In this document: positions 43,956-64,000 of the stretch, one piece after another
Layout: every line of letters begins with the position of its first letter
How positions within the stretch are numbered: position 1 is the first letter of the stretch
Assembly: GCA_900095095.1 (NCBI GenBank)
Contig: FMBT01000451.1
Coordinates: 33,488 to 97,487, forward strand
DNA from: Fragilariopsis cylindrus CCMP1102
Taxonomy: Eukaryota > Bacillariophyta > Bacillariophyceae > Bacillariales > Bacillariaceae
Direction: 5' to 3'
DNA length: 64,000 nucleotides
The notes under the pieces: generated by a model
The model's database searches: none
Told to the model about the DNA's origin: nothing
The model's input: only the letters and a program-made list of their open reading frames with translations
Translations under genes and position numbers: made by a program

Positions 43956-45466
43956 CTACGTTGGTTTTGCTGTCATGGCAAAGGGGCAAACAGAAACAGT
44001 GTCATACTTAACATCGTTTGCTGAATCTTCCTCTTCTTTCAGAACACTTGCCTTTTCATTTCTAGCCAAAGCCTTTACCATTTTTGATTTGTGAGTTTTC
44101 ATCCATTGTTGATGAAAGGCAATTGACGCTTTTTTATGCAACCTATGATCCATCTCCTCACCGGACCTGGTGACTTCATCGCTACAATACAATACACCCG
44201 TGTAGAAACTAAAAATAATGTTGATACCAGGTATATATTTAGTCGTATCCATGGATTCGGATGAAGAGGCAATTCGAGGGCATTTGCTAGTTCATCACCA
44301 ATCATGCGTCTACAATTGAAACAACGATAATAAAATAATTTGTTTTTGTAAAATTCCTCAGGGATTTTGTTGCTTTGCATCGAAGGTGGTTTTCGGTCAG
44401 TGATCTTCAGTAGATGATGTGCTATTTCGATAGATGATTTATCTGGACACAATAGATGGAAAATTATCGACTGGAAGATAGATTGGGAGTTTATTATTGA
44501 ATTAGGTTTGGCATGAACTCCGGGACCGCACGGATCCAACGGTGGTAACTCATCCATCGTTGGTTGACCATTACTTCTACAAGTATTGTCAGATTCAGCA
44601 GTTTCTACACCAAGAAGCCATCCAAGATACCTCCACAACGCCATATAGTCAATTCGTTCTTGATCTGAGATTGATAGTCCAGTTATAAGATCCACTCCGA
44701 TAAGAACGTTCGTACTAAAAGCTAGTGTTGTTGCTGCCATATCTTCTTGGTTTATTGGTACTCCAAACTTGTCGAGATTCCACTTTTTCTTTCCTTTTCT
44801 ATTGAGGATGGCAAAACGCACCTTGGCATGTAGGAATCGAACATGAAGGGCTGTCTTCCATCCTATTCCACCAGGTAGCAATGCATCTACTCCCAATGCG
44901 GTGCATGCTACTGTAAATTCCCCCGTATCTAGTAGTCGTTGAAGAGCCTGATCTGGTCGGGATGGAGGTGCGAGGTAAGCGGTGCTTTGAATAACGGCGG
45001 CAATTTTAGGTATAGAAAATCCAGCAATCAGACTTCGATAGTAGAGAGAAAGTGAGACAGCTGGAAGATACGCAAGGAAGACTTCCTGTCCTCGTTTCAA
45101 CTGATCAACGTCTACCCAAGTTGGAAGTTTGTTGAAAGTTTGCATAAAAGACACCATTTCTTTTTCGGCAGTAGAGAGTACGGAATTTTTCGTCGTATTC
45201 TTCAAAGCAGTTTCTGCCATAAGAAGCAAATCATCACCAGCCCCAAGACTCTCTCCGTCTTCATCTAATAGCTTCAATATCTTGTCTACAGGTGGATCAC
45301 CAATTAAACGATACGGCTCTAGTGTCTCAGTCGATAGATGATATCCACCATCTTTTCTTTCTAACCAAAGAACTTTCTGACCAAACTTAGTCCTAACGTA
45401 TGCTCCCTCGGGCCATGTTTTTTGGTGGGGAATGCGATATGCAGGAATGTCAATGGCATTAAACAT
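43956..45466 (-). CDS. DUF2236 / MpaB-Lcp oxygenase-like protein
   Basis: The ATG at 45466 opens MFNAIDIPAYRIPHQKTWPE. The core has the family pattern of the ER-bound oxygenase MpaB / latex-clearing protein fold: a helical protein with a heme-ligand region (LARGQEV-like segment RGQEVFLAYLPAVSLSLYYR, then AYLAPPSRP) and the invariant R-x-x-H-x-x-V-R type helix VRFLHAKVRFAIL, followed by NQEDMAATTLAFSTNVLIG. Members bind b-type heme and oxidise hydrocarbons or prenyl chains. The C-terminus shifts frame at the T-run 44238-44240 on the plus strand; one extra A joins LHPNPWIRL to KYIPGINIIFSFYTG and ends at 43956, giving ~500 residues. The retrotransposon begins 72 bp upstream of the start codon. 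Confidence 0.8.
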
Positions 45467-45538
45467 CGACTGATACCGATAGCCTACTATTATACGACCT
45501 ATTAATTTCTATGATCCCATGGTGATCGTAATATAGTG

Positions 45539-45836
45539 CTAAATTAGTGACACAAAGACCAATAATTTAGCCTAAGTTAGGTACCAGACAATCCGCTCGT
45601 GATTCATTCCTTGTTATATTTTACCAATGTCGTAACACAGATCTATGGGTCTACTCTCTTCTGGAGCAGACAGTCTTCCGATTCTTCCTATGGTTGATTG
45701 TTGGGTCGTGAAACGACTCGGGACTGAATCATAGGTGAACTATGGTGGCGCTGGGGTCCGGCGTCAAATTTCCCTTTTTGAGGGGAATTTGGCTTCGAAT
45801 CCGTGTGCTACTATGAATACTGAAAAATGCTTTCTC
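45539..45836 (-). repeat. B2 split direct repeat (3' terminal)
   Basis: 298 bp, essentially identical to B1 at 46037-46334, starting CTAAATTAGTGACACAAAG on the plus strand. It forms the 3' end of the element in coding orientation and abuts host DNA (ATATAGTG) 72 bp upstream of the oxygenase-like gene. Confidence 0.92.
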
Positions 45837-45858
45837 TAGGAGTGAGGTTTGGTTGTGG
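45837..45858. other. 22-bp non-repeated spacer between A2 and B2
   Basis: The sequence TAGGAGTGAGGTTTGGTTGT (plus two more G) lies between B2 and A2 and is absent at the B1 and A1 boundaries. B1 and A2 join directly. This could mark the recombination overlap or the leftover of circle resolution. Confidence 0.6.
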
Positions 45859-46036
45859 GAAAGCATATACAGTAAGGTTACTTCAGTCGAGTCTTTTCGA
45901 CGACATAGGTCAAATCTGACAAAGAATGAGAGTGTAATAGGTGTATACTATTTCACTCTGCCTCCGCCTTCCTTGCGCGTAGGTTGTACGCGCAGGAGGC
46001 GAATTCATCACTGCACTTGCTGGACCTGCGTGTCAA
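45859..46036 (-). repeat. A2 split direct repeat (internal)
   Basis: 178 bp, matching A1 at 55680-55857 over its full length. It contains a 15-bp-stem hairpin (45965-46001). It is directly adjacent to B1. Confidence 0.92.
45965..46001. other. Conserved GC-rich hairpin in the A repeat
   Basis: CGCCTTCCTTGCGCGTA and TACGCGCAGGAGGCG pair around a GGTTG loop with two bulged T. The same structure occurs in A1 (about 55786-55822) and in the second element copy (about 62676-62713). Confidence 0.75.
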
Positions 46037-46334
46037 CTAAATTAGTGACACAAAGACCAATAATTTAGCCTAAGTTAGGTACCAGACAATCCGCTCGTGA
46101 TTCATTCCTTGTTATATTTTACCAATGTCGTAACACAGATCTATGGGTCTACTCTCTTCTGGAGCAGACAGTCTTCCGATTCTTCCTATGGTTGATTGTT
46201 GGGTCGTGAAACGACTCGGGACTGAATCATAGGTGAACTATGGTGGCGCTGGGGTCCGGCGTCAAATTTCCCTTTTTGAGGGGAATTTGGCTTCGAATCC
46301 GTGTGCTACTATGAATACTGAAAAATGCTTTCTC
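46037..46334 (-). repeat. B1 split direct repeat (internal)
   Basis: 298 bp, identical or nearly so to B2 with an offset of 498 bp. It is followed inward by the untranslated 3' region of the element. Confidence 0.92.
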
Positions 46335-46753
46335 CACAAACCAAAGCTACCGTAGGTGGCAAGGCCCATGATCGTGGAAAACCTGTAATCTAGATCCTCA
46401 ATAACGTGGGTGTGTTAGTCCGCGTTAGAGGCGGGTCTAGATTGAGGTACGAGTATATAATAGTCGGACTGAATGGAGGTTTTTCGTGTAATAGAAAATA
46501 CTAGTGCTGGAATCTATGTAGTTCTAGAGTTGTTACTGACTAGGTTATAGATGTAGTATGTTGTTGATCATTACAGAAATTATATGTATTAGAATTGAAT
46601 GTGGTTATAAACGAATATCTTGCTGATGTTGTTCGACAGTGGCTAAGCTGTGTCGTGAAATCAGAGTATTGTTGTTGACGTCTTATGTATAGCGTCAGTG
46701 CTTAAGTAAAGATGCGCTCGACGATGCAGACACGTGTGTCGATGCTTTCGTTG
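46335..46753 (-). other. 3' untranslated region of the retrotransposon
   Basis: This lies between the fourth ORF and B1 and shows no coding frame on the element's sense strand. It contains a short inverted pair TCTAGATCC/GGGTCTAGA (46392-46442) around a GCGTTAGAGGCGG loop region. Confidence 0.5.
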
Positions 46754-48282
46754 CTATCGTTGACTCTTTTGTACAGAGTCGGTTGGATGAATGTGTTGTT
46801 GGTGGACGCAAATGGTGGTGCATTTGTGTCTTATGGAGTTTTGGAAACGATGACTGCTCGTTTCAATGTGACAGTCGTTCCTGCTCCTCCTCCAAAGATC
46901 TTTCCCTCCGATGCGCTTGTTGCAGACGTCGCGTCTACCGGCTAGTAGGGTAGTATTTTTGACTTCCTCGTAGAACTGATCTCTCATGATCCAAGTGTTT
47001 CGGACACGTTGGTGTTTATCCTTCATATCAACGAAATCGTTGATGGTGATGAGCATGAGGATGTCGGGGAGGAAAAGTGCGTGCTCGTAACAGGTCCCAC
47101 TGATTTTGGGTACTTTTGCTTCGCATTGCAAGATGATGACACAGTTACTTGGTGGGAGATTCCGTGGATCGCTGTAGAGACTGCCTCTGATTCCGAGGAG
47201 AATGTCATGGAGTTCGAATCCAACCCCATGTGTATCGTAGTGGTCTACATCGTGGGTTGTGACAGTTTGGAGGTTCAAACGGTTGACGCGGGTTGATGGA
47301 TCGACTAGGTCAGCTTTGCCCTTTGCAATAACTGAGATTTGGTCTGGCGACAAAGTTGTGCCTACGATTTTGGTCGCCAAGGAGAAAATGCGTTGGAGGC
47401 GATTAACGCCGGAGTTGAGTCGTAGCCTGTATCCATGTCCAACGCGAAAAGCGTAGTGTCGTTGAAGTGCCTCGATGACTTCAGTTGGCTTGAACCATTT
47501 GTTGCTACCTTTACCGTGTCGCTTCGTGAGTCCAACCCGTTTTTCTTGACGAATAGGGCGGGCTGAACGATGGTGTTGTCCCACAGAATCGTCTGAACCG
47601 GATGAGATGGACTCAGCTGCGCTGTGGTAGTCGTAGTCCGAGGCGGCATACTCTGGAAAGTTGTTGTTGAGGTTACGAGGTGGTACTCTAACGAAAGGGG
47701 CCTGATCCTGTCGAGGATGAGCGGCAGGAGTGACGTAACGTGGTGACGCGAATGCCTGACTTGTTTGAATGCTGTTTCCATTTGTTCCGGTGTGAGTCCA
47801 CTGAGTTGAGCCATGGATGCCATGGATTGCTGAGTTGGAACTGGAAACTTTGGACGTTTTGGTGGAGGTGTTGATACCATTGTTGCAGAATTGGTTGAAT
47901 TTGTTGATGATGGTGTAGAAGAAGCGTTTGTGTGAAGCCTCTTTTTTGGATTGTGAGCTTTCAGATTTGTTCTGATTATCTGCAGTGGTCGTTTCACGTA
48001 GAAATTATTGATTGTTGTTTGTTTTCTCAAAGTTGATTTCACTACCGTCGCTGATTCTCGTGTATTTGAAGTGTCGGTTGTTGTGATTTCCACGTTGGAG
48101 TCGTCCGTTTCGGCAGATGAATCTGAAATTGGAGCGACTCCCGCGGAGGCGGGTAGCGATAACGCTGCTGGGGCTTGTGCTGGTTTAGAAATTGGCGCTG
48201 GTTCTTTGTTGTTCATGGCTATAGGTTTTATGAGCCTGTTGGTAAACGGTGCTAAGCGTACAAAGTAGTTTGTATAAACCAA
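46754..48282 (-). CDS. Retrotransposon ORF4, unknown function
   Basis: Two overlapping minus-strand frames (47362-48282 and 46754-47584) become one ORF of about 500 residues if one A is added in the run AAGAAAAACGGG near 47548-47552. The join then reads ALFVKKKRVGLTKRHGKGSN. The N-terminal half is Thr/Pro/Ser-rich with a basic patch (KRPLQIIRTNLKAHNPKKRL). The C-terminal half is more ordered (WFKPTEVIEALQRHYAFRVG, RLQRIFSLATKIVGTTLSPD, NCVIILQCEAKVPKIS). It follows the recombinase stop by 63 bp. I recognise no domain: no SGNH hydrolase, methyltransferase or OTU motif, which some DIRS/Ngaro relatives carry. The antisense frames at 46712-46945 and 47009-47296 also look somewhat protein-like, so the strand call is not certain. 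Confidence 0.55.
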
Positions 48283-48345
48283 CGTGGAATATCCGTTTTG
48301 GTTTTGTTGTGTGATGGTGTAGTAATCGCGGAAAATGTAACGTTA

Positions 48346-51300
48346 CTAGTTTTGCACCGTTGTTGCGATACGGAGTTCTGGCGAGTTGATTGGCTCAAAC
48401 GTGCGTCGTATGTTTTTGAAATTAACGTGCTGGCCCATCTGTTTAGATACGCCCCTTGAAAAAGCGGCGATTTGTTCGTGTATGTATATGAGGAATGTAT
48501 CGCTGCTCCAGCGTCCCATTTTTTGTATGGTACGATCCGAGATTCCGTTTAGATGCATGGCTGTCGCGCCGCCGGCTCGCAGGCTATGTGAGCTGACTTC
48601 GCTTGGGTGAATGCCTTGTCGATCAAGGCGTAGATGTGTGACTGCTTTTTGTAACGCGCGTGTCATGCACCCAGTGCGTAGCGCTCGTCCGTTTGGATAT
48701 TTCTTGTCGAAAAAGGTGCTTATAATTGTAGCGGTATCTGTTGTATGCGCTAATATATGTTTTATTTGACGTATTAAGCATGAACTGGGCAAGGTGGTGT
48801 ATCTGTTACATCTTGGTGAATTGTTTGTGCTCTTTTGCCATTCTTTTGATTCGAGATATGGAGGGTAGCCTCTGTTGCGTCACGAAATAAAACGTCGATT
48901 GGGAGTGAGTGCGGTAGGATGGTATTGTTGTTCCAAAATGTTACGTCACAGACTCGAAACTGTTTAGTTCTTCGTCGTTGTTTGGGATCGACGAACGTGT
49001 ATTCTCCTCCTCGGAGTAGGTAGTGGAAAGCTATGGTGGCCATATTTCCTACTGTTTGTTGCTTGGGTGCATTGGACGACAGACCCGAGAGTACTAAGTA
49101 TGTTGGGACAGATAACGGTATAGCTAATTTCGGTTTTGACGGAGGATCTTCGCGTCGGTAGCTCTCAAGAAGCTGGCCGATTTTTTTCGTATACTTTCCT
49201 TGCGACGTGACCAAGGGACTAGGTTCATGGTCCATTTGGAACATCGTGCTGATGGCGCGAAGCGCCACCTCGACTGTTTGGGTGCGAACTTGCTGAGTTC
49301 GTCTAGAAACGCCTCCGGAACGCACATGGTGGGCGAAGGCAGCCAGCAGTTCGACTCGTTGAGGTGGAGTGAGAGCACGCATTTTTGGGTCAAGTTTGGG
49401 AAAGTTGAGTCCGAGGAAATTGCACCAAGCCGACCAAAAACGCCTTTTTTCGTTGGCAGTTGATTCCACGATGCCAAGGACGACGGAGCGTTCAACATCT
49501 CGGAAGAGATCTTTGATAATAGATTGTCGTGAAACTGGAACAAAGTCCAGAAGTTTCCCTGAGGAGGTGTGAAAGTTTTTGTAAAATAATCGAGGAATTG
49601 TGTAGGGTTAGAAACATGCTTGCGTGAAGCGACGTCGGCCATAATATTGTAAATTCCTGAGATGTGGTCGATTGCGAGTAGACCCGATTGTTGATGCTGG
49701 AGTCGAACTGCTAAGGCTCGAAGTATGCGTGAAGCAACCGGTGATGTGCTGGTGCGCATTTTGTATATCCAAGACACTGCTGGTAGATTGTCGCACCAAA
49801 TGGCGATGCTGGAGTGTGTAAGAGTGTCGTTGTCCACTGATGCTTCTAGGACGAGCCAGTGGAGCAGGATGCCCATTAGTTCTAGATCGGAGATGGTTAG
49901 GCGGCCTTTTCGATTTGAGGAGGTGACGAGATTGTTTCGAACCTCTGTAGGCCATTCCCAGAACCAAACGATTGGTGAAATTTGGTTTGTTCCTCCGAAC
50001 CATACTCCTCCTACGCCCCATTTTGATGCATCGACGAAACCTTGATACGAAGCTTTGTGCAACACTAATTCGTTGACGTGTGTAGGGCGTTGTCCTAACT
50101 GTCGAATGAGTGCAATCCAATCCCTGAGGCAGAGTCGAATGTTGTCTGTCAATGTTACATGATGTCTGTTGTGTCGTTCTGCGATGGCGATGGCCTGGTC
50201 GAGAGGACCTAGAAGTGGTTTGCCACATGGGATTGCTATCGATGTGAATTGGAGTTTGCCGTGAACTTTTTGGAAGTCTCGTGTTGGTACTCGTTTGGAT
50301 TTTCCTCGCAGTATACGCTTGACTTCGGTTCGTATAGTTCTGCCTTTGTTTTCTGGCAGTTCTATAGTTCGTGCGATGCCATCGAACAACCATCCTAGGA
50401 TTTCCTTCCTTATTTCCCAAGTGCCTTCGGCAATGAGTTTTTTAATGGAAACTGGTGGACCCATTGCACTGTTGGTGATTTCTGGTGGTGGGAAAACGTC
50501 CGTTATTGCGCTGAGGATTGTGCGTGAAAATCGGAGCAGATGATCTTTGTTTGTGCTTTGAATGAGGCCGATGAAATCATCGATGTACACTTCGAGAAGG
50601 TTGACGAATTGGCGCTTGGAACGTTCTGTTGTTGGTGGAGGGACTGGACTTGGGACGGTGTTCCAATCGATGTCCATCATGATGTCCTCCATAGGCTGTG
50701 CTGGGACCGGAGTATGGTTGTCGAATTTTTCCTGTGCAATGTCGCGTGCCGTTTCGGTTGCTGCACAGAAAAACGGGGGTGATTCTCCCCATCCCATTTG
50801 TAGGGCCTCCGGTATGACCAACTGGATTGGATCTGATTTTTGACCACCTGGAAGGACGTAAGCGAAGTTCCAGGCGTCGTCGCTGTTAAACACACATCCG
50901 CCAATACCCGTCTTTGAGGTCGACTTTCGTGAACAGAAATGGTGTTGTGGTGTCGTGCGATGTTGCCATTGCCCAAATGATGCGTGGGATGACGTTGCCG
51001 AGTTCGTACATGGCATGCTGTGGTGCTAAAGATTTGTCGGAAGTTTCGTTTACCGATTGTAGCTTTTTGCCGTTCAGCGTGATTTGGAATGACAAATCCA
51101 GGATCATGCGGTAAATACGAGACTTGTGCGGTACTGCAGCTATTGGTGAGACCTTTAAGTTAGGAGGGATGTTGTGTTTGATTTTGTCCCAAGTGACGAG
51201 GCGACAGCATCCGTCAGCAACTCTTTCGAGTGCTTCTTTACGACATGCTTCTGCCGCTCCTGGAGCTTCTGCGCTGGCATGGGCTCCTTTTTCGATTGCT

Positions 51301-51416
51301 GCTTCGATTCTTTCGCGAGACCATTGGTCGCCACAGTCAACAGGGCAACCATCGACTGCGTATCGGAGGAGGTCTGGACCTGCAGGGTGTGTTAAAACTT
51401 CATGACGCGGGAGCAT
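48346..51416 (-). CDS. Retrotransposon pol: reverse transcriptase - RNase H - tyrosine recombinase
   Basis: The RT begins near LPRHEVLTHPAGPDLL; the open frame extends upstream to ~51775 without an ATG. RT motifs: FLFTKVDLKDGYWRM (motif A), NFAYVLPGG, and the active site YIDD at 50576-50587. RNase H follows with GFVDASKWGVGGVWF (D), SDLELMGILLHWL (E), IAIWCDNLPAVSWIY (D) and ISGIYNIMADVASR (D). The recombinase (48346-~49520) has LLRGGEYTFVD (first Arg), SSHSLRAGGATAM (His-x-x-Arg) and GRWSSDTFLIYIHEQ (Trp and nucleophilic Tyr). Frame slips occur near 50990, at 49510 (TCAAAGATC) and at 48775 (GCTTAATAC). Correcting the second fuses RT-RNase H and recombinase into one polyprotein (LLSK-DLFRDVERSVVLGIV). 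Confidence 0.92.
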
Positions 51417-51912
51417 GAGCCCCTTAAATTTTGGTAACTTACTTTGTATTGGCGTGTGTGCCGGTGGTTCAGTCGTTGATGGTCCTCCTCCTCGTGGTCG
51501 CAGGGGTGGAGGTGTAGCAGGTAGCTGCGCTGGGGTAGGCGTAGGTGGTGCTGTCGGTAGCTGTGAAACATGGATTGCTCGATGGCGTGCGTGGTCTATG
51601 ATTTCCTGAGTGGAAGAGTTTCGTGTGGCAGCTAGTCGATTGAGTTGTTTGTTTTCCTCGAATGCCCGTTGTTCGGAATTGCAGGAGATGTAGCGAGTGT
51701 TGTGCTGATGTGAGTATCTCTGACTGTTGCTAACCCGAGGTGCCGCTGGCCTATGTTCTAGGTTAGGGCGTCTTTGTTATAGCGCGAGAAGCAGAGTAGG
51801 AATATAAGAATAGAATAGATTTAGTGATGCAAAAAGTATTTTATAGGTAGTTTAGTATAGAAACGTAAAGAGATGTAAATACACGCGTACGCGTAGAGCA
51901 GCAAGATGTGTC
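51417..51912 (-). other. Spacer between gag ORF2 and pol, partly open pol leader
   Basis: From ~51775 to 51417 the pol frame stays open and encodes a polar, Pro-rich segment (QLNRLAATRNSSTQEII, then TAPPTPTPAQLPATPPPLRP), without an ATG until KGLMLPRHE. It may be translated by readthrough or reinitiation. From 51777 to 51912 no frame is supported. Confidence 0.5.
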
Positions 51913-53410
51913 TTACTCTGGAAGACCTTTGCGGAGGATGTCCTCTGCCGCTGTTTCTGCAAAGCCTGCAATTGTTTGAGGATGATCGCGTTTGCAGTTA
52001 CTGCGGCAGCTACCTAGTAGTGCCCAGCGGATGCAGGTGGCGGCGTTGAGATTGAGTAGCGTTTGGAGCGCTGCGTCGTCAGCAATGTCGCTTGCCTTTC
52101 TAAAATCTAATATATTAGGCATACGGGCCTTATTGTGTGCCTTTTTCCAATCGTTGATAAGCGTGGTCATGCCGTTTCCCATTTGACGAGTAACAGTGCT
52201 AGACTTTGTTGGTTGCGTGGCTGGTGGTGCGCCTTTGCCTTGACCCTTAACCTTGGGTGTTTTTGGACCACGTGGTGTTCCTGGTGCAGGACGTGCTTTC
52301 GTTTGCGCTGGTACGAGAGCGAAGGACGCGTTTGTGACGTGTTGAGATTGTTGTTTCGGATACCCTCGATGAGGAAATTGAAATTTAAGGTCGGTAACTG
52401 TCCTTGGAGTAGTTGGCGTTCGCTTGTAGCTTGGCCGAAGAACTGCTCCGCTCCGCGTGTGAGCTGGAATAGGCATTCTGCACCGACGGTGGTGCCGAAA
52501 CTGGTTTGGTGTTCGTAATGCTGATTTCCCTCATACAGTGCTAGAAGGCTGCCCTGTGCGAGGTTGACATAAGGGCATCTGGGAGCCCACAAAAAATCAT
52601 TGACCAATGCGCATGATTCGATGGTAGAGGTGGTGCCGGAGCGCCATCTGGAATTTTTGGACGCCCGAGGCGTGTTTTGTCAATATCCGAAGTTGTTGGT
52701 GAATCGGATTGTTCGTTGATGGATATCTGATGAGACATCATCTCAATTTCCCGGCGATCTCGAGGTACGAATGCCATAGGACCTAATCCTAATGTTGGTT
52801 TGTCGCTTTCTAGGTTCACCGGTTTGAAGCGAAAGTTGATGATGGTCTCGATCAAATCGTCGTGGAGGCAGGTGATGAGTTTCGGGTGCTTGTGTATGAG
52901 ATGTTGGAACATCTCCGTTCGTACGACGTGCCGTGCGTCGGGCTTGTTTTTGCAAGCATTGAGTTTAGGCCAAAAGTAATTGTTGTGATTGTTAAGGTAA
53001 TCTACGTCGTTTGGATGTACGTTTGCCCATGCAAGGACGCTAAACTGTTGCATGCCTAAGAAATTCTTCTTGGTTTCGTCAGTGGCCGATGTAGTAGGTG
53101 AACCGATCATGGCATTGAGAATGTTCCACTGGTTCATTTCTGATGTTGTTGGTGGACGTTGGGTGCACAACTCGCTGAGTTCTTTGAGTTTATCGGCCGC
53201 GCTCGATGACGGACTGGAGCCAAAGGGACTCAGGCCAGAGCTTGCTCTGGTGGAAGTGGTGAAAATGTTCGGTTCACGTGACCTGAAGGTGGAGGTGCCT
53301 GTGCTGTGCCGATTGATAGGAGGTGGTCCCGAGTGAGCTCCCCATGAGTTTCTTGGAGTTTGAGTCCAAGGATGGGTCCCAGAATTGTTGTTGTAGCTGT
53401 TGGAATCCAT
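51913..53410 (-). CDS. Retrotransposon gag-like ORF2 with CCCH-type knuckle
   Basis: The ATG at 53410 opens MDSNSYNNNSGTHPWTQTPR. A helical capsid-like middle follows (LGMQQFSVLAWANVHPND, TEMFQHLIHKHPKLITCLHD, TIINFRFKPVNLESDKP). The C-terminal part is Lys/Pro-rich and ends in a Cys/His cluster, C-x8-C-x3-C-x3-H (CIRWALLGSCRSNCKRDHP), a plausible nucleic-acid-binding knuckle. Two slips (T-run near 52585, A-run near 52386) split it into three frames. One added base at each site gives a single ORF of about 500 residues: SMIF-LWAPRCPYVNLAQ and PTLK-FQFPHRGYPKQQ. Confidence 0.75.
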
Positions 53411-53512
53411 GGCAGCGTAGTTCGTGCGTGCTGTGAAATGTTCCGATGCTAGTGGAGGGCATTCGAGGTTGTCGCTGGTGTTCCATTGGACGCACCTGTT
53501 TGGGTAGCGTCC

Positions 53513-54409
53513 CTAAGAACGTTGCTCGTTGTAAGGAGACGTGGTACTTGGTCGGCGGGTGTGTTGCCGGTCCTGATTGTTGCGACTTGCGTATGCCGGA
53601 GTGACGTCTTCGATGTCGGAGTCGTCGTCTGCTGGCTGTGGTGGACGTTCAGTTTGAGCTTGTGGACGGTCCTCAGTAACGGCGGCGTTATCTGGCTCCA
53701 TTCGGATGATTGGGTTGAATTCCTTTAAGAGTGCAGCGACAAAGACGTCGTGAGCATCATCTTCATCGACGAAGGCATCAGAGATGTCTCGGTACTTCTG
53801 GTATGCGATTGGATCGGCAAACTGTGGCAGAATGGTAGGAGAGAGTTCGATTGCACTTCGAATTGTGAGTGAGCTGGTTTTAAGGCAAGCTGCCTTTGCC
53901 CAAGCTTGGATCATGCGGACATTGTCGTCCTTGATATCCTTCAGGGCATGGTAGAATTCATGAGGATGGCGAGGGGTGGCGTCCTCGTTTGAAAGCGAAA
54001 TGCAAGTACTCCGTTCGGAGTGGGGCAATGCGAAGACCACGGCGGAGGCCGTTGGCGCATGATGTAGGGACAAAAAGTTTTGTGTCTTTTTGGGTGCTGA
54101 CTTTTGGCTAACTTCATAGGGATTTGCATCAGGTCGTCGGTGGTGAATTCGACGAGTTTCGGAGTGGACTCGAGAGTGATGGCGTAACGTTTGTCACCTT
54201 CAACTCCTACGATCATCATCGCTGTTACCACTCCTGGTTCGTGTTGGAGCATAGCAACGCAAATGGATCCGGTGTTCCACCAAGCATCCGAGATGGGGAA
54301 ATGTTCCGAGTTTGTTTCGAACGACGCTGTGTTGAACAACGCTGTGTCCTGTGCTGGGCGATGTGCCTCAGACAAAAGGAGGGATGCAAGTGTGTTTTTG
54401 AAGAGACAT
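53513..54409 (-). CDS. Retrotransposon gag-like ORF1
   Basis: The ATG at 54409 opens MSLQKHTCIPPF. Two lost T, in CCTTTTGTCTG (54375) and ACTTTTTGTCC (~54070), break the frame. Corrected, it gives about 300 residues ending RRPSTTSPYNEQRS. The middle has a helix-rich segment (HEFYHALKDIKDDNVRMIQA, KYRDISDAFVDEDDAHDVFV). The C-terminus is acidic, then basic and polar. No zinc knuckle is present. It lies directly upstream of ORF2 with a 102-bp gap, so it is likely translated first from the genomic RNA. Confidence 0.65.
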
Positions 54410-55349
54410 GATTGCTAAGAAAACGTTGATGTTGTTTGAGTTGCAAAGAAGGTTTTGATTTGAAGTCAAGTTTGTTTTGTGACTAGAAGGAGACCGGAAC
54501 ATTTAATAGGTTTGAAATGAACGACGGAAATGCTATGAAAGTCGTGTAGATTAACGTAACTACAAGTAAAATTTCGGTGGAATACTAGAGTGTAAAAGAA
54601 TATTTTAAGTAAATCTTTGTCAAATGTTGTTCATTTGAGCGTTAGGGCAAGGAAATATAGCTCTAACGGAAGCGTTGGTTCCGTTTGCGTGATCTAATGC
54701 GTTTGACGCTACCGTTGGTTCGTATGTAACCTGTGACGGAGTCGAGAGTGCACAGAAGAGGTGCTCGTTCCCTATATGGTTGTAGCAAATGTTGTTGCAA
54801 TGTTGTTGTACTTAGAACATTCGTGAATTTGAAATAAGCGGCATATAAGGATTCACTCCGGCGTTGAATTTGTACGGTGGCGTTGAATTTATCGTACGCT
54901 GGTGTCGAGCGTTGGAATGGAAGTTTGATTCCGGCATTGTCTCTTTCCCGTGGTAGCAGGTGGAGAAACCACATGTGACTTGTGAGCGAAAAGGTGTTTC
55001 GCGTTTTGCCTTATCATGTTAAAAGGTGATCGTAACGATGAGTTGTGCCTGACGGCGTGTGGCGAGCCAACCGTAAATGATAAAAGGTATGAGTGGCTGG
55101 CGCGTGCTGATAGTGTTTATAGCCCGTAGTGCCGGCTGTTTTGAAGGTTCGTCGACGTATGCGTCGAGATCCCTAAAAGCGCGCTTGTGTGCGGTGGTGT
55201 TTCCGTTGTTCCTCGTATCGTGGTAGTAAAGTGAAAGTGAAAACTAAAAGTGACGTGCCGGTGGCAGTCCTTAAGTGCAATTGGCTGGTTTTTGGTGACG
55301 TGAGCGCGGCGTGCGCTGTCACAAAAATTTGGACCGAATCCGTATTTGT
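54410..55349 (-). other. Retrotransposon 5' leader
   Basis: About 940 bp lie between the RT-like fragment and gag ORF1. A 103-codon frame (54663-54974) is present in both copies, but the second copy has compensating indels that change about 15 residues near its C-terminus, so it may not be selected as protein. The leader is shared almost base for base with the plus-strand copy at 63152-64000. Confidence 0.6.
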
Positions 55350-55679
55350 TTACTGCTTTTGCATTGTGATTGATGCGAGAGCTGATGGTGTCGTTGCACC
55401 TTTGGTTGTCCTCTCGGTGTGTACCGGTGTGAGGATTATGAGACCGGAGGTCGATTCTTGAACAAGACGATGGCAGACCGTTGCTCCGCTGTGGAGTGTG
55501 GTGCTATGGCGCTGTCGTTGTTCAAATGTTTGTGTTGTACTGTCTACAACCCACCCAAGTATTGATTTTCGCGTCGTCGTGGCTCTGGTGTCGAGTTTTT
55601 TGACGGAAATTGGTGGTTCCATTGATCTGTGTCCTGTTGTGAAGTGTGTGTTGATACTCTTACTGTTGGTGTAGCCCAA
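55350..55679 (-). other. RT-like fragment in the retrotransposon leader
   Basis: An open frame of 109 codons directly inside A1 includes MEPPISVKKLDTRATTTRKS and ILGWVVDSTTQTFE. These resemble MGPPVSIKKLIAEGTWEIRK and ILGWLFDGIARTIE in the element's own pol, just after the YIDD box. After that the similarity fades. It looks like a captured or rearranged piece of a related element's RT, now part of the leader of both copies here. Confidence 0.7.
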
Positions 55680-55857
55680 GAAAGCATATACAGTAAGGTT
55701 ACTTCAGTCGAGTCTTTTCGACGACATAGGTCAAATCTGACAAAGAATGAGAGTGTAATAGGTGTATACTATTTCACTCTGCCTCCGCCTTCCTTGCGCG
55801 TAGGTTGTACGCGCAGGAGGCGAATTCATCACTGCACTTGCTGGACCTGCGTGTCAA
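55680..55857 (-). repeat. A1 split direct repeat (5' terminal)
   Basis: 178 bp, matching A2. In coding orientation the element starts TTGACACGCAGGTCCAGC. The right flank is AGTTGAGAATAATTTG (host). Confidence 0.92.
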
Positions 55858-56390
55858 AGTTGAGAATAATTTGTCGAAGATTGTGCGCGATGAGTCACGA
55901 TTTTTAAGAAGGCGACTGGAAATAGAGAACTATTTTGTTGTTGCTGTTAATTTTTGTTGTTGTTGAAAAAAATTGTGCGAAAGAAGATTTAGAAGATGAG
56001 AAGATGTTGGTGGTTGATGAAAACTAAAAAGAAATATGGCATAGCAGAAAAATTGACTGGAAGAACAAAATACATCTCTCATCTACGAAATACTCTTGCC
56101 GATAGCTCAATTTTTTGATCGCTTGTGTGAGGTGCACTTATATCTATATATATCATATTTTTTATATAATATTCCATTGTACGTAGTTTACTGCTACTAT
56201 CAGTGAGCTATTGTCAGTATAGAAGCTGTTCATACCAGTAAAAATGTGTGTGACTTATATTTTGAATCACCTGAGAGGTAAAGGTATTAGAAAATTATTA
56301 GCTAGTATTCTAGTATCTCTACTTTTCCTACATTTGTAGGAGCGAATCCTTCAAGAAGTACTCTTCAGTGCCTTGTTTTTGAATCATATA
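55858..56390. other. Host flank between retrotransposon and Q-rich gene
   Basis: A/T-rich 3' flank of the minus-strand Q-rich gene. No gene is seen. Confidence 0.55.
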
Positions 56391-59300
56391 CTAGGAAGTC
56401 CTTGAAAATGGATCAAAAGAATTAGCTGGATTTAGATTCATTTGGTGGGTTTGATGCTGCTGCTGTAAATGCTGTTGGTGTAGTTGATTCTGCTGTAATT
56501 GCTGTTGCTGTATTTGCTGCTGCTGCTGATGTAACTGTTGCTGTATTTGCTGTTGCATGTGCTGCTGTTGTAATGGGCCTCCGGAAAATTGTTGACTCTG
56601 CAAGGCATTTCCTTGATGTTGGTGTGGGTAAGTATTTGCCCATTGGCCACCAATATTCGCTACTATCTGTTGCTGCACTCCACCTGTCAGCTGGTCAAAC
56701 ATGATCGGTTCTTGTCGTGGGACAACCATAAATTGTTGATGCTGCAATCCGTGGTACCCGTTCGCGACAAGCGTTTGTTTTCCAGGGGCAGGTGACGGGT
56801 GTTGGTCAATCGTTCCTTCAGTAGCTCGTATGGTAGATGGTGCCATTCCAAGCACAACAAACGGATCTTGACTTACGAATGTGTTCCCCATTTCAGACAT
56901 TGGGTTCATACTATCAGATGTGAGAGAACGTTTGATAGGCAATGCCTCAAGCGAAGGAGGTGTGGGAAATGAGATGACTGGCACCGTTGATTTCAGTGGA
57001 TCAAAATCGTGGAGACTTTGACTGTGTTTGTGGCCAGTAGGTTTCGGTGTATTCTTGGGCGGTCGAAGAGGAGGTATGAACGGCGGTGCCCCTGCCGAAG
57101 TCGTCCGACTTCTTACCTCAATTTCATTTCCACCACCGTTGATTCTATTCAAATTCGGGCGAGTTGTTGTATCAGGTGCATTCTTCGATTCATTTTTCTC
57201 TTTTTGATTGGTTATAAAAAGTTTTGATTTTTGTGGTACTGGTGACGACGGCAACATCGCTGTAGAAGTATGAGATATTGAGTTTCCTGTTACCGCATTT
57301 GCATCACTCGCGATTGTGTCTCTTATTGGCGAGGATCCATTCACTGTAGTGATTTTTTTGTTACAAGTTTCATTTTTTCAGGAGACTTACTTGTAACGGT
57401 ACAACTGACGTTTCCGTTACGTAATTTCTCGGAGTTTGATTCAGTATCTTGACGTGGGCCTTCTTTTTCTTCTTTTGCCTTTTTTCCATTCTGCTTCCCA
57501 GCTTTTGCTGTTTCACCCTTTGCATCACGTAATTTCTTTCTGAGATCCAAGTTTCGCATCTCAACCTTCTCTCGGAGTACCTGTTCATCACGTAATTTCT
57601 TATCTAGCTCCCTATTTTTAGCCTCCAAGTCTTTATTGTTATCACGCTAAAGAAAACGAGATCAAAACATGATTCATGTGAGTATAAACATTAAAGAAAC
57701 ATACGAAAGTACAGTACACATGTAAAATCTCACCAATAGTTTCATATCCGTCTGAAGCGACTTGATGCATTGATCAGCCTCTGTCACCTCCGTTTTCATC
57801 TGTTCCATAAGGTAAAAACCTTTCCAAGTCCCACTGAGCTCCATGTGCCATTGCTACCAATAGTTTGGGGTACTTTGCCACTTCTTCCTTGGACGGTTTT
57901 CTTTTTTTTGCTCACTGTTTTTAGTTGATGTGGTGGTTGTTGCTGCTGTTTGTCTGTATTTGTGGAAGTTGGTGGCTTGAGGATCGGTGCAATTGGCAAT
58001 GAGGAATTTAGAGATGACGAACGACTGTGCATCGGCGACGGGACATTTAATTGTGAGGTTACACCCCCAGGAGTAGGAGGTGGAGTAGGCACGTTATAAG
58101 ATAGAGAAGTCGGAGGTCCATTCGTAGAAAAAGGTATCTGTTGTTGATGGAGATACTGTTGCTGGAAATCGTGCTGTATCTGAGCTACCGGAGCAACAGA
58201 TATTGGTCCTGATACCGTATATACAGATGGATCTATTGTATGTTGGACTTGTGGCAGATTTTGAACGTACTGTTGCTGATTCTGAGGATAAGATTCTACA
58301 GGGATTTGCGAAAATTGTACGTTGTTGGACGCGACATTTTGATTGTTTTGCATCGGTGCTTGGAGAACTGCTGCTGATTATCTTGGGCTGCCGACACCGG
58401 AAAATGAGTATAATTCTGTTGAACCTGTTGCTGTTGCGAGATTTCGTACACTGCTGCATGGTAGTAACAGGCTGGATCACAACCGGTTGCATAGGAATCT
58501 GAGAAACATTCGACTGTTGTATATTTTGATGGATGATAGAAACTGGCTGATTTTGTAATGGTGATACTTGTTGATGTTGCTGTTGTTGAAACTGCTGCTG
58601 CTGTTGCTGTTGTAATCGTACTGCACTGATATCATTTTCGTTTACTATCAATGCTCCTGTAGTAGCTTGGATCTGAAGGTTTGGCAGTATAGAGCCAGGG
58701 TCTTTTACATTGGTTACGAAAAATCTGCCTTTCTTTTTTACCGTTGGCGCACTTTTTCCATCAAAAGTTTGTGTGCTGCTATCCCCGCACTAGTATCCCT
58801 CGGAGGCATAGGCGATTGACTTCTAGAAGAAACACCAGCTGGCACACATTATTAGGCATAACCGGTGTCTCTTGTAACAAACTGAAGCGACCCTTCTTTT
58901 TCTTCACATAATGCATACCTCCGCTTTGTAATTTTATTATGGGTATCGCCCCAACCATCCCAATAATCTGATCTCCTGCTTCTATTTCGTTTTGATGCTT
59001 GTATTGTATCTGTTGTATATGTTGTTGTTGTTGTTGATGATGATGCTGTTGCTGCTGCTGCTGTGGTGGCTGTTGTTGTTGGGTCGTACTGTAATTATTT
59101 TGGGTACTATCATGCTGGGACGAGTCGACCGGAAGGGTTACAACACTGGGAATCTGAGGAATTTGATAATATACTGTCTGTTGTGGTTGTTGTGACCACT
59201 TGTTGCGCTTGAGTAGATTGGTCATAATTGTATGCATTTTCCTGCTTATCCGACTGTTGCGGTGGCGGCGGCTGCTGCTGCTGCTGAATTGCGGTTCCTA

Positions 59301-62641: not shown

Positions 62642-62820
62642 TTGACACGCAGGTCCAGCAAGTGCAGTGATGAATTCGCCTCCTGCGCGTACAACCTACG
62701 CGCAAGGAAGGCGGAGGCAGAGTGAAATAGTATACACCTATTACACTCTCATTCTTTGTCAGATTTGACCTATTGTCGTCGAAAAGACTCGACTGAAGTA
62801 ACCTTACTGTATATGCTTTC
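62642..62820 (+). repeat. A1 repeat of the second copy
   Basis: 179 bp, matching A1/A2 of the first copy with one extra T (CTATTGTCGTCG versus CTATGTCGTCG). Confidence 0.9.
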
Positions 62821-63151
62821 TTGGGCTACACCAACAGTAAAGAGTATCAACACACACTTCACAACAGGACACAGATCAATGGAACCACCAATTTCCGTCA
62901 AAAAACTCGACACCAGAGCCACGACGACGCGAAAATCAATACTTGGGTGGGTTGTAGACAGTACAACACAAACATTTGAACAACGACAGCGCCATAGCAC
63001 CACACTCCACAGCGGAGCAACGGTCTGCCATCGTCTTGTTCAAGAATCGACCTCCGGTCTCATAATCCTCACACCGGTACACACCGAGAGGACAACCAAA
63101 GGTGCAACGACACCATCAGCTCTCGCATCAATCACAATGCAAAAGCAGTAA
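62821..63151 (+). other. RT-like leader fragment, second copy
   Basis: Same frame as in the first copy (MEPPISVKKLDTRATTTRKS, ILGWVVDSTTQTFE), ending SITMQKQ. Its conservation in two separate insertions shows the fragment is a fixed part of this element family, not a private rearrangement. Confidence 0.75.
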
Positions 63152-64000
63152 ACAAATACGGATTCGGTCCAAATTTTTGTGACAGCGCACGCCGCGCTCA
63201 CGTCACCAAAAACCAGCCAATTGCACTTAAGGACTGCCACCGGCACGTCATTTTTAGTTTTCACTTTCACTTTACTACCACGATACGAGGAACAACGGAA
63301 ACACCACCGCACACAAGCGCGCCTTTTAGGGATCTCGACGCATACGTCGACGAACCTTCAAAACAGCCGGCACTACGGGCTATAAACACTATCAGCACGC
63401 GCCAGCCACTCATACCTTTTATCATTTACGGTTGGCTCGCCACACGCCGTCAGGCACAACTCATCGTTACGATCACCTTTTAACATGATAAGGCAAAACG
63501 CGAAACACCTTTTCGCTCACAAATCACATGTGGTTTCTCCACCTGCTACCACGGGAAAGAGACAATGCCGGAATCAAACTTCCATTCCAACGCTCGACAC
63601 CAGCGTACGATAAATTCAACGCCACCGTACAAATTCAACGCCGGAGTGAATCCTTATATGCCGCTTATTTCAAATTCACGAATGTTCTAAGTACAACAAC
63701 ATTGCAACAAAATTTGCTACAACCATATAGGGAACGAGCACCTTTCTGTGCACTCTCGACTCCGTCACAGGTTACATACGAACCAACGGTAGCGTCAAAA
63801 CGCATTAGATCACGCAAACGGAACCAACGCTTCCGTTAGAGCTATATTTCCTTGCCCTAACGCTCAAATGAACAACATTTGACAAAGATTTACTTAAAAT
63901 ATTCTTTTACACTCTAGTATTCCACCGAAATTTTACTTGTATTTACGTTAATCTACACGACTTTTCAAGCATTTCCGTCGTTCATTTCAAACCTATTAAA

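Follow-up and report, generated by a model that had tools for sequence, protein, structure and literature searches.

Retrotransposons with a tyrosine recombinase (YR), some of them with split direct repeats, are already on record for stramenopiles. Four Ngaro types with the organization A1-[ORFs]-B1A2B2 (ORF, open reading frame) are described for Cafeteria (PMC8547959). For Ectocarpus, one source lists 15 Ngaro and 5 PAT-like families (PMC12477816), and another reports DIRS/Ngaro-like elements (PMC3145265). A table for P. tricornutum gives 14 DIRS copies (PMC5859163), and 'Gypsy/DIRS1' is given as 1.11% for Chaetoceros tenuissimus (PMC8613185); no detailed description of a diatom Ngaro element was found in the open-access papers searched. 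Here, we describe an element of 10,319 bp on the minus strand, at positions 45539-55857 of a DNA stretch of 64,000 nucleotides (the window; C532:33488-97487, whose right edge is the contig end), together with its relatives in the searched genome of 67.9 Mb and 818 contigs. It is very likely a young, multi-copy YR retrotransposon (order DIRS, Ngaro-like by layout) of a probable diatom. The initial annotation had expected an uncommon lineage among stramenopiles, which the Ngaro and PAT-like elements listed for Ectocarpus and Cafeteria (PMC12477816, PMC8547959) do not sustain: the kind of element is already known, and all that sets it apart is a break in the reverse transcriptase (RT) gene, which its copies share and which the cell may need to read through.

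The host is very probably a diatom, as had been proposed from the letters of the sequence, because the genome contains 27 silicon transporter matches, reaching 757 bits; among 14 control genomes, only one gave a match, which was below the cut-off. Silicon transporter genes also occur in other silicifying algae.

Structure of the element and its copies

Read on the minus strand, the order of the parts is A1 - gag - RT/RNase H - YR - ORF4 - B1A2 - 22-bp spacer - B2, with split direct repeats whose internal pair lies downstream of YR. Alignment of the repeats bore out the two pairs of exactly equal length noted at the outset: the 5' terminal repeat A1 (178 bp, 55680-55857) is 100% identical to A2 (45859-46036), which abuts B1 directly, and B1 (298 bp, 46037-46334) is 100% identical to the 3' terminal repeat B2 (45539-45836). 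The spacer between A2 and B2, CCACAACCAAACCTCACTCCTA (45837-45858), is conserved between families. Within 44000-58000 of the window, direct repeats of at least 40 nt fell into just two families (298 and 178 nt), and inverted repeats of that size were not detected. A chance origin of exact repeats at these lengths is far from plausible, and the real question is whether the assembler created them.

The coding parts, all on the minus strand, were identified in the window translations, in which the YIDD motif, the four RNase H acids and the recombinase residues R...HxxR...Y are readable, as initially annotated. The ORF with YIDD and RNase H spans 49124-51016 (630 aa), and an N-terminal RT piece, reaching motif A (DLKDGYWRM), spans 50886-51416. 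The fold of the relative P0002 matches RT-RNase H structures. A profile search of A1 against PDB sequences gave four weak matches to pol-type proteins (E 0.017 to 0.48) and was set aside. YR, on the same strand as RT, comprises an N-terminal piece (48774-49469, with the frame open from ~49607) and a catalytic piece with HxxR and Tyr (48346-48792; PF00589, 29.5 bits against a cut-off of 27.1). It sits in a different frame from the RT-RNase H ORF and overlaps it by ~480 bp, and thus RT, RNase H and YR do not form the single ORF first proposed; by-eye inspection revealed no convincing -1 slip site between them. The two gag ORFs distinguished initially are likewise pieces of one. In the window copy, the gag region (51913-54532, upper limit approximate) is divided into pieces at 53941-54375, 53513-54073, 52541-53410 and 51913-52476, while in copy C635 a single frame is open over ~847 codons. 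The identity of gag is by position only; it gave no convincing Pfam match, and a Cys-His cluster (CIRWALLGSCRSNCKRDH) is readable near its C-terminus, with no zinc-finger match in Pfam. ORF4 consists of an N-terminal piece (47362-48282), whose N-terminus is shared by P0122, and a conserved C-terminal piece (46754-47584). No known domain was found by Pfam in the window pieces or the relatives, and only three homologues occur among the proteins searched. An AlphaFold model of ORF4 built from four sequences reached a pLDDT of 40 and was not used.

The element is well delimited and recurs in the genome, as the search for further copies revealed. The RT region gave 27 DNA matches, of which 12 are 98-100% identical (family 1) and 15 are pieces at 67-69% identity in 13 places (family 2), so that two families lie side by side. 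The termini are constant: the full 298/178/22/298 block is present at the 3' end in eight of the 12 contigs examined, whereas C648, C774 and C341 have a block with a cut or slightly altered end and C81 has a single B without A2. Eight of 10 comparisons between A1 and A2, and six of eight between B1 and B2, showed no difference, so that most of these insertions look recent, with caution regarding the flanks. Family 2 (67% identical), as read in copy C349, has the same order, with an A of 178-181 bp, a B of 266-269 bp and a 21-bp spacer, and its A and B repeats could not be aligned convincingly to those of the window family. Among the few insertion sites that could be judged, no target-site duplication of more than 1 bp was found; these are five copies, namely C60, C635, C81 and C184, in which neither flank is common to another copy, and C166, whose 3' flank is shared.

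The element is presumably transcribed from A1 to B2, with its own RT-RNase H turning the transcript into DNA. According to the literature model for PAT/Ngaro elements, the cDNA ends could then be joined over the internal B1A2 copy, in which the 3' end already stands beside the 5' end, to give a circle, and YR would recombine the B|A junction of this circle into the genome without a target-site duplication. Genomic insertion is probably accomplished by the recombinase.

Frame change within the reverse transcriptase

All 12 family-1 copies carry a change of the RT frame immediately beyond motif A. In 11 of them the site is GTT-TAA-C (50885-50891, minus strand), after which reading resumes in the +1 frame, while C648, which is rich in single-base gaps, has an additional T. 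The change was found in none of eight family-2 copies; in family 2, C340, C299 and C260 have an RT frame open over 836 codons. The family's own public record, P0001 (39 members, 8 contigs, sources lgn and ena; 100% identity over 93% of the query), starts exactly at the frame-change site, which the relative next in line, at 82% identity, passes without a break. The site is covered by 105 of 123 protein records, 104 of which cross it in frame, P0001 alone starting there; another 15 RT records begin 30 to 232 residues past the site and are uninformative, and the remaining three are ORF4 records.

Immediately downstream of the frame change, an RNA hairpin is predicted at 50842-50881 (minus strand; -17.1 kcal/mol), starting at most 12 nt past the stop. 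Its z-score was -2.4 for a stretch of 59 nt picked after seeing the sequence, compared to -0.9 for 99 nt, and 11 of the 12 family-1 copies have the stem, compared with none of the eight family-2 copies. Beyond the shift, purifying selection on RT persists. In seven copies, all shifted, the RT-RNase H part downstream showed 4 nonsynonymous and 16 synonymous changes (P 7e-7; expected nonsynonymous share, 74%), and the respective counts were 4:13 in YR, 6:10 in the gag C-terminus and 9:11 in RT upstream of the shift. This count left out C306 and C648, which have many indels, and the mosaic group C774/C706/C605; when the mosaic group was added, RT-RNase H showed 11 nonsynonymous changes, one of them a stop, against 17 synonymous (P 1.2e-4). 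The RT stretch shared by the mosaic copies (L017-L019) contains a stop and has a net gain of 20 bp, and looks as though a diverged copy had been used to patch it.

Two explanations present themselves: either the family reads its RT by a +1 frameshift, or it is a defective lineage that was multiplied with outside help. The second falls only a little short of an even chance. It holds that a single defective copy gave rise to all the others and that they were mobilized in trans, with the 67% family as one possible helper, and it agrees with the occurrence of the break in every family-1 copy and with the open 836-codon RT frames that family 2 offers. The nearly identical A2-B2 spacer of family 2 and the copy in C184, a 3.3-kb deletion derivative that keeps both ends, also speak for it. 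A dead RT would, however, be expected to drift, and the 4:16 ratio after the shift argues against such drift, although this signal could also stem from recombination with a lineage that lacks the shift and is missing from the assembly.

Programmed +1 frameshifting in the catalytic core, aided by the hairpin, is possible because the downstream RT remains under purifying selection and the hairpin is present, but it is a tentative and rather doubtful proposal. The ribosome would read GUU, meet UAA, slip to the +1 frame and resume at AAC. The site resembles that of bacterial RF2, CUU-UGA-C. For Euplotes and related cases, the literature describes slips to +1 at a stop codon in the A site, with re-pairing of the P-site tRNA (PMC5009743; PMC5011710). 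If GTT-TAA-C works as a frameshift, its place within the RT domain, and not between genes, would be unusual, and decoding at such shifty stops would become testable in diatoms.

Ngaro and PAT affinities and points of doubt

The initial annotation had placed the element with PAT/Ngaro split-repeat retrotransposons. The YR and the split direct repeats uphold this, while the PAT side is not favored: since no methyltransferase match was obtained in 44 relatives (Pfam, with RVT_1 alone at E<=0.01) or in the window pieces at E<=1, the Ngaro-like assignment is preferred. An element of the DIRS/PAT clade whose methyltransferase is lost or hidden is an unlikely alternative, yet several features would suit it. 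PAT elements likewise carry split direct repeats, the Cys-His cluster of gag could fit the zinc finger of Pat1, and an overlap of RT and YR has been described in DIRS-type elements, while in Ngaro and Viper it is termed unusual (PMC3266345). Against it stand the lack of a methyltransferase match in those relatives, the little room between RNase H and YR, and the fungal Ngaro elements, in which YR can also be frameshifted relative to RT-RNase H (PMC3783388); as far as the two sources go, they differ on how strictly the ORFs of Ngaro are free of overlap (PMC3783388 vs. PMC3266345). Of 824 relatives, the 120 listed are either nameless or labeled 'hypothetical protein'. In the viral contigs scanned, 30 pattern matches included no relatives.

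Several points weigh against a Ngaro-like, recently multiplied retrotransposon. The placement of Ngaro over PAT depends on one Pfam negative, that for the methyltransferase. The Pfam domain RVT_1 was below the cut-off in all six relatives scanned singly and was found at E<=0.01 in only 16 of 44, so that RT was identified from motifs, fold and homologues. Neither a transcript nor a circle nor a new insertion was observed. The window copy has reading-frame breaks in gag, RT, YR and ORF4, and the element described as complete is therefore complete in structure and not in coding. Compared with 11 sister copies in the RT-YR part and six in the gag part, it has eight single-base indels and ~11 substitutions of its own; this high ratio of indels suggests uncorrected long-read errors in a repeat, as in C648, whose dozens of single-base gaps are clustered near a contig end. 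Long host ORFs within the window are open.

The flanks raise a further doubt. Ten different 5' flanks were found among 15 copies compared, nine copies having their own and six sharing one (C532, C706, C523, C306 and C605 at 1.00 of 20-mers, C774 at 0.93). Because five of these contigs share the 5' flank and yet differ mutually at the 3' flank, contigs may have been led through the repeat into one common flank, and the two flanks of the window copy may not be partners. All five stop at an identical point in a head-to-head second copy, 1358 bp beyond the beginning of its A repeat. Over ~3.2 kb of the 5' part, substitutions are absent between C706 and C306, and only four separate C523 from C706, yet these copies differ further on; C648 and C166 have a common 3' flank. 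A chimeric contig is argued against by the 5' part of the element itself, where 14 to 18 substitutions separate the window copy from each of C706, C523 and C306, three of the contigs with exactly the same 5' flank.

That the repeats themselves are duplications created by the assembler is very improbable and largely refuted: wrong joins at the element are indicated by C706 and C306, and C648 has its many gaps, but the B1A2-spacer-B2 block recurs across many contigs, the 12 copies and ten 5' flanks are joined by a second family with the same layout and unrelated repeat sequence, and a genome search for the spacer gave 28 occurrences (12 in the 22-nt and 16 in the 21-nt form) compared to 0 for the reversed control pattern.

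Conserved non-coding parts, neighbors and known systems

The two families together expose conserved cis parts, the A2-B2 spacer and a palindromic B|A junction. The spacer (CCACAACCA..CCTCACTCCTA) is identical at 20 of 21 positions between the families, a score reached by none of 5000 shuffles, and is much better conserved than the surrounding repeats. By eye, short inverted arms flank it, which are ATGCTTTC/GAAAGCAT for family 1 and the shorter GCTTC/GAAGC for family 2, and the segment just 5' of B1 (TTTGGTTTGTGG) resembles the reverse complement of the spacer. The B|A joint reads ACTAA(A)TTTAGT in both families; folded as single-stranded DNA, it was no more stable than shuffles. In family 2, both ends of the element have a 3-bp AGT in common.

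Other features were observed in and around the copies. The second copy, of which the 5' end (A1 and leader, 62642-64000, plus strand) is cut by the contig end, stands head-to-head with the first and starts 6785 bp from it. An ORF for an MPAB/Lcp-type oxygenase (44099-45466, minus strand) starts 72 bp downstream of the 3' end of the element, and Rfam and tRNA scans of the window gave no match. The deletion derivative (L052, G000:C184:445727-448999) consists of A1 and the first 3.07 kb joined to the last ~209 bp of B. A third YR-retrotransposon lineage (L066 and L067, G000:C88:322526-326285), with RT 31% and YR ~30% identical, has a 179-bp repeat pair downstream, with 204 bp between, and no A1 in the 5.8 kb upstream. 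YR frames of 452 codons, ~27% identical to that of the element, are present at G000:C184:663684-664904 and C762:4381-5601; no RT lies beside them among the RT matches listed, and they are possible Cryptons.

Compared to the described groups, the element resembles DIRS1-like elements in that RT-RNase H and YR can overlap in different frames, and the AGT of family 2 recalls their 3-bp circular junction, while their inverted terminal repeats and internal complementary region were not found here (PMC3266345). It has split direct repeats in common with PAT, Toc3 and Kangaroo but gave no match to the methyltransferase that defines their group, and its YR is not inverted, unlike that of Kangaroo (PMC4157794). 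By description, it shares a photosynthetic stramenopile host with the Ngaro and PAT-like families of Ectocarpus (PMC12477816). Like the Ngaro elements of Cafeteria burkhardae, it has the order A1-[ORFs]-B1A2B2, a Gag-like ORF1, an RT-RNase H ORF2, a separate YR ORF3 and a stramenopile host; judged likewise by description, it differs from those elements of ~6 kb in its length of 10.3 kb and its fourth conserved ORF (PMC8547959).
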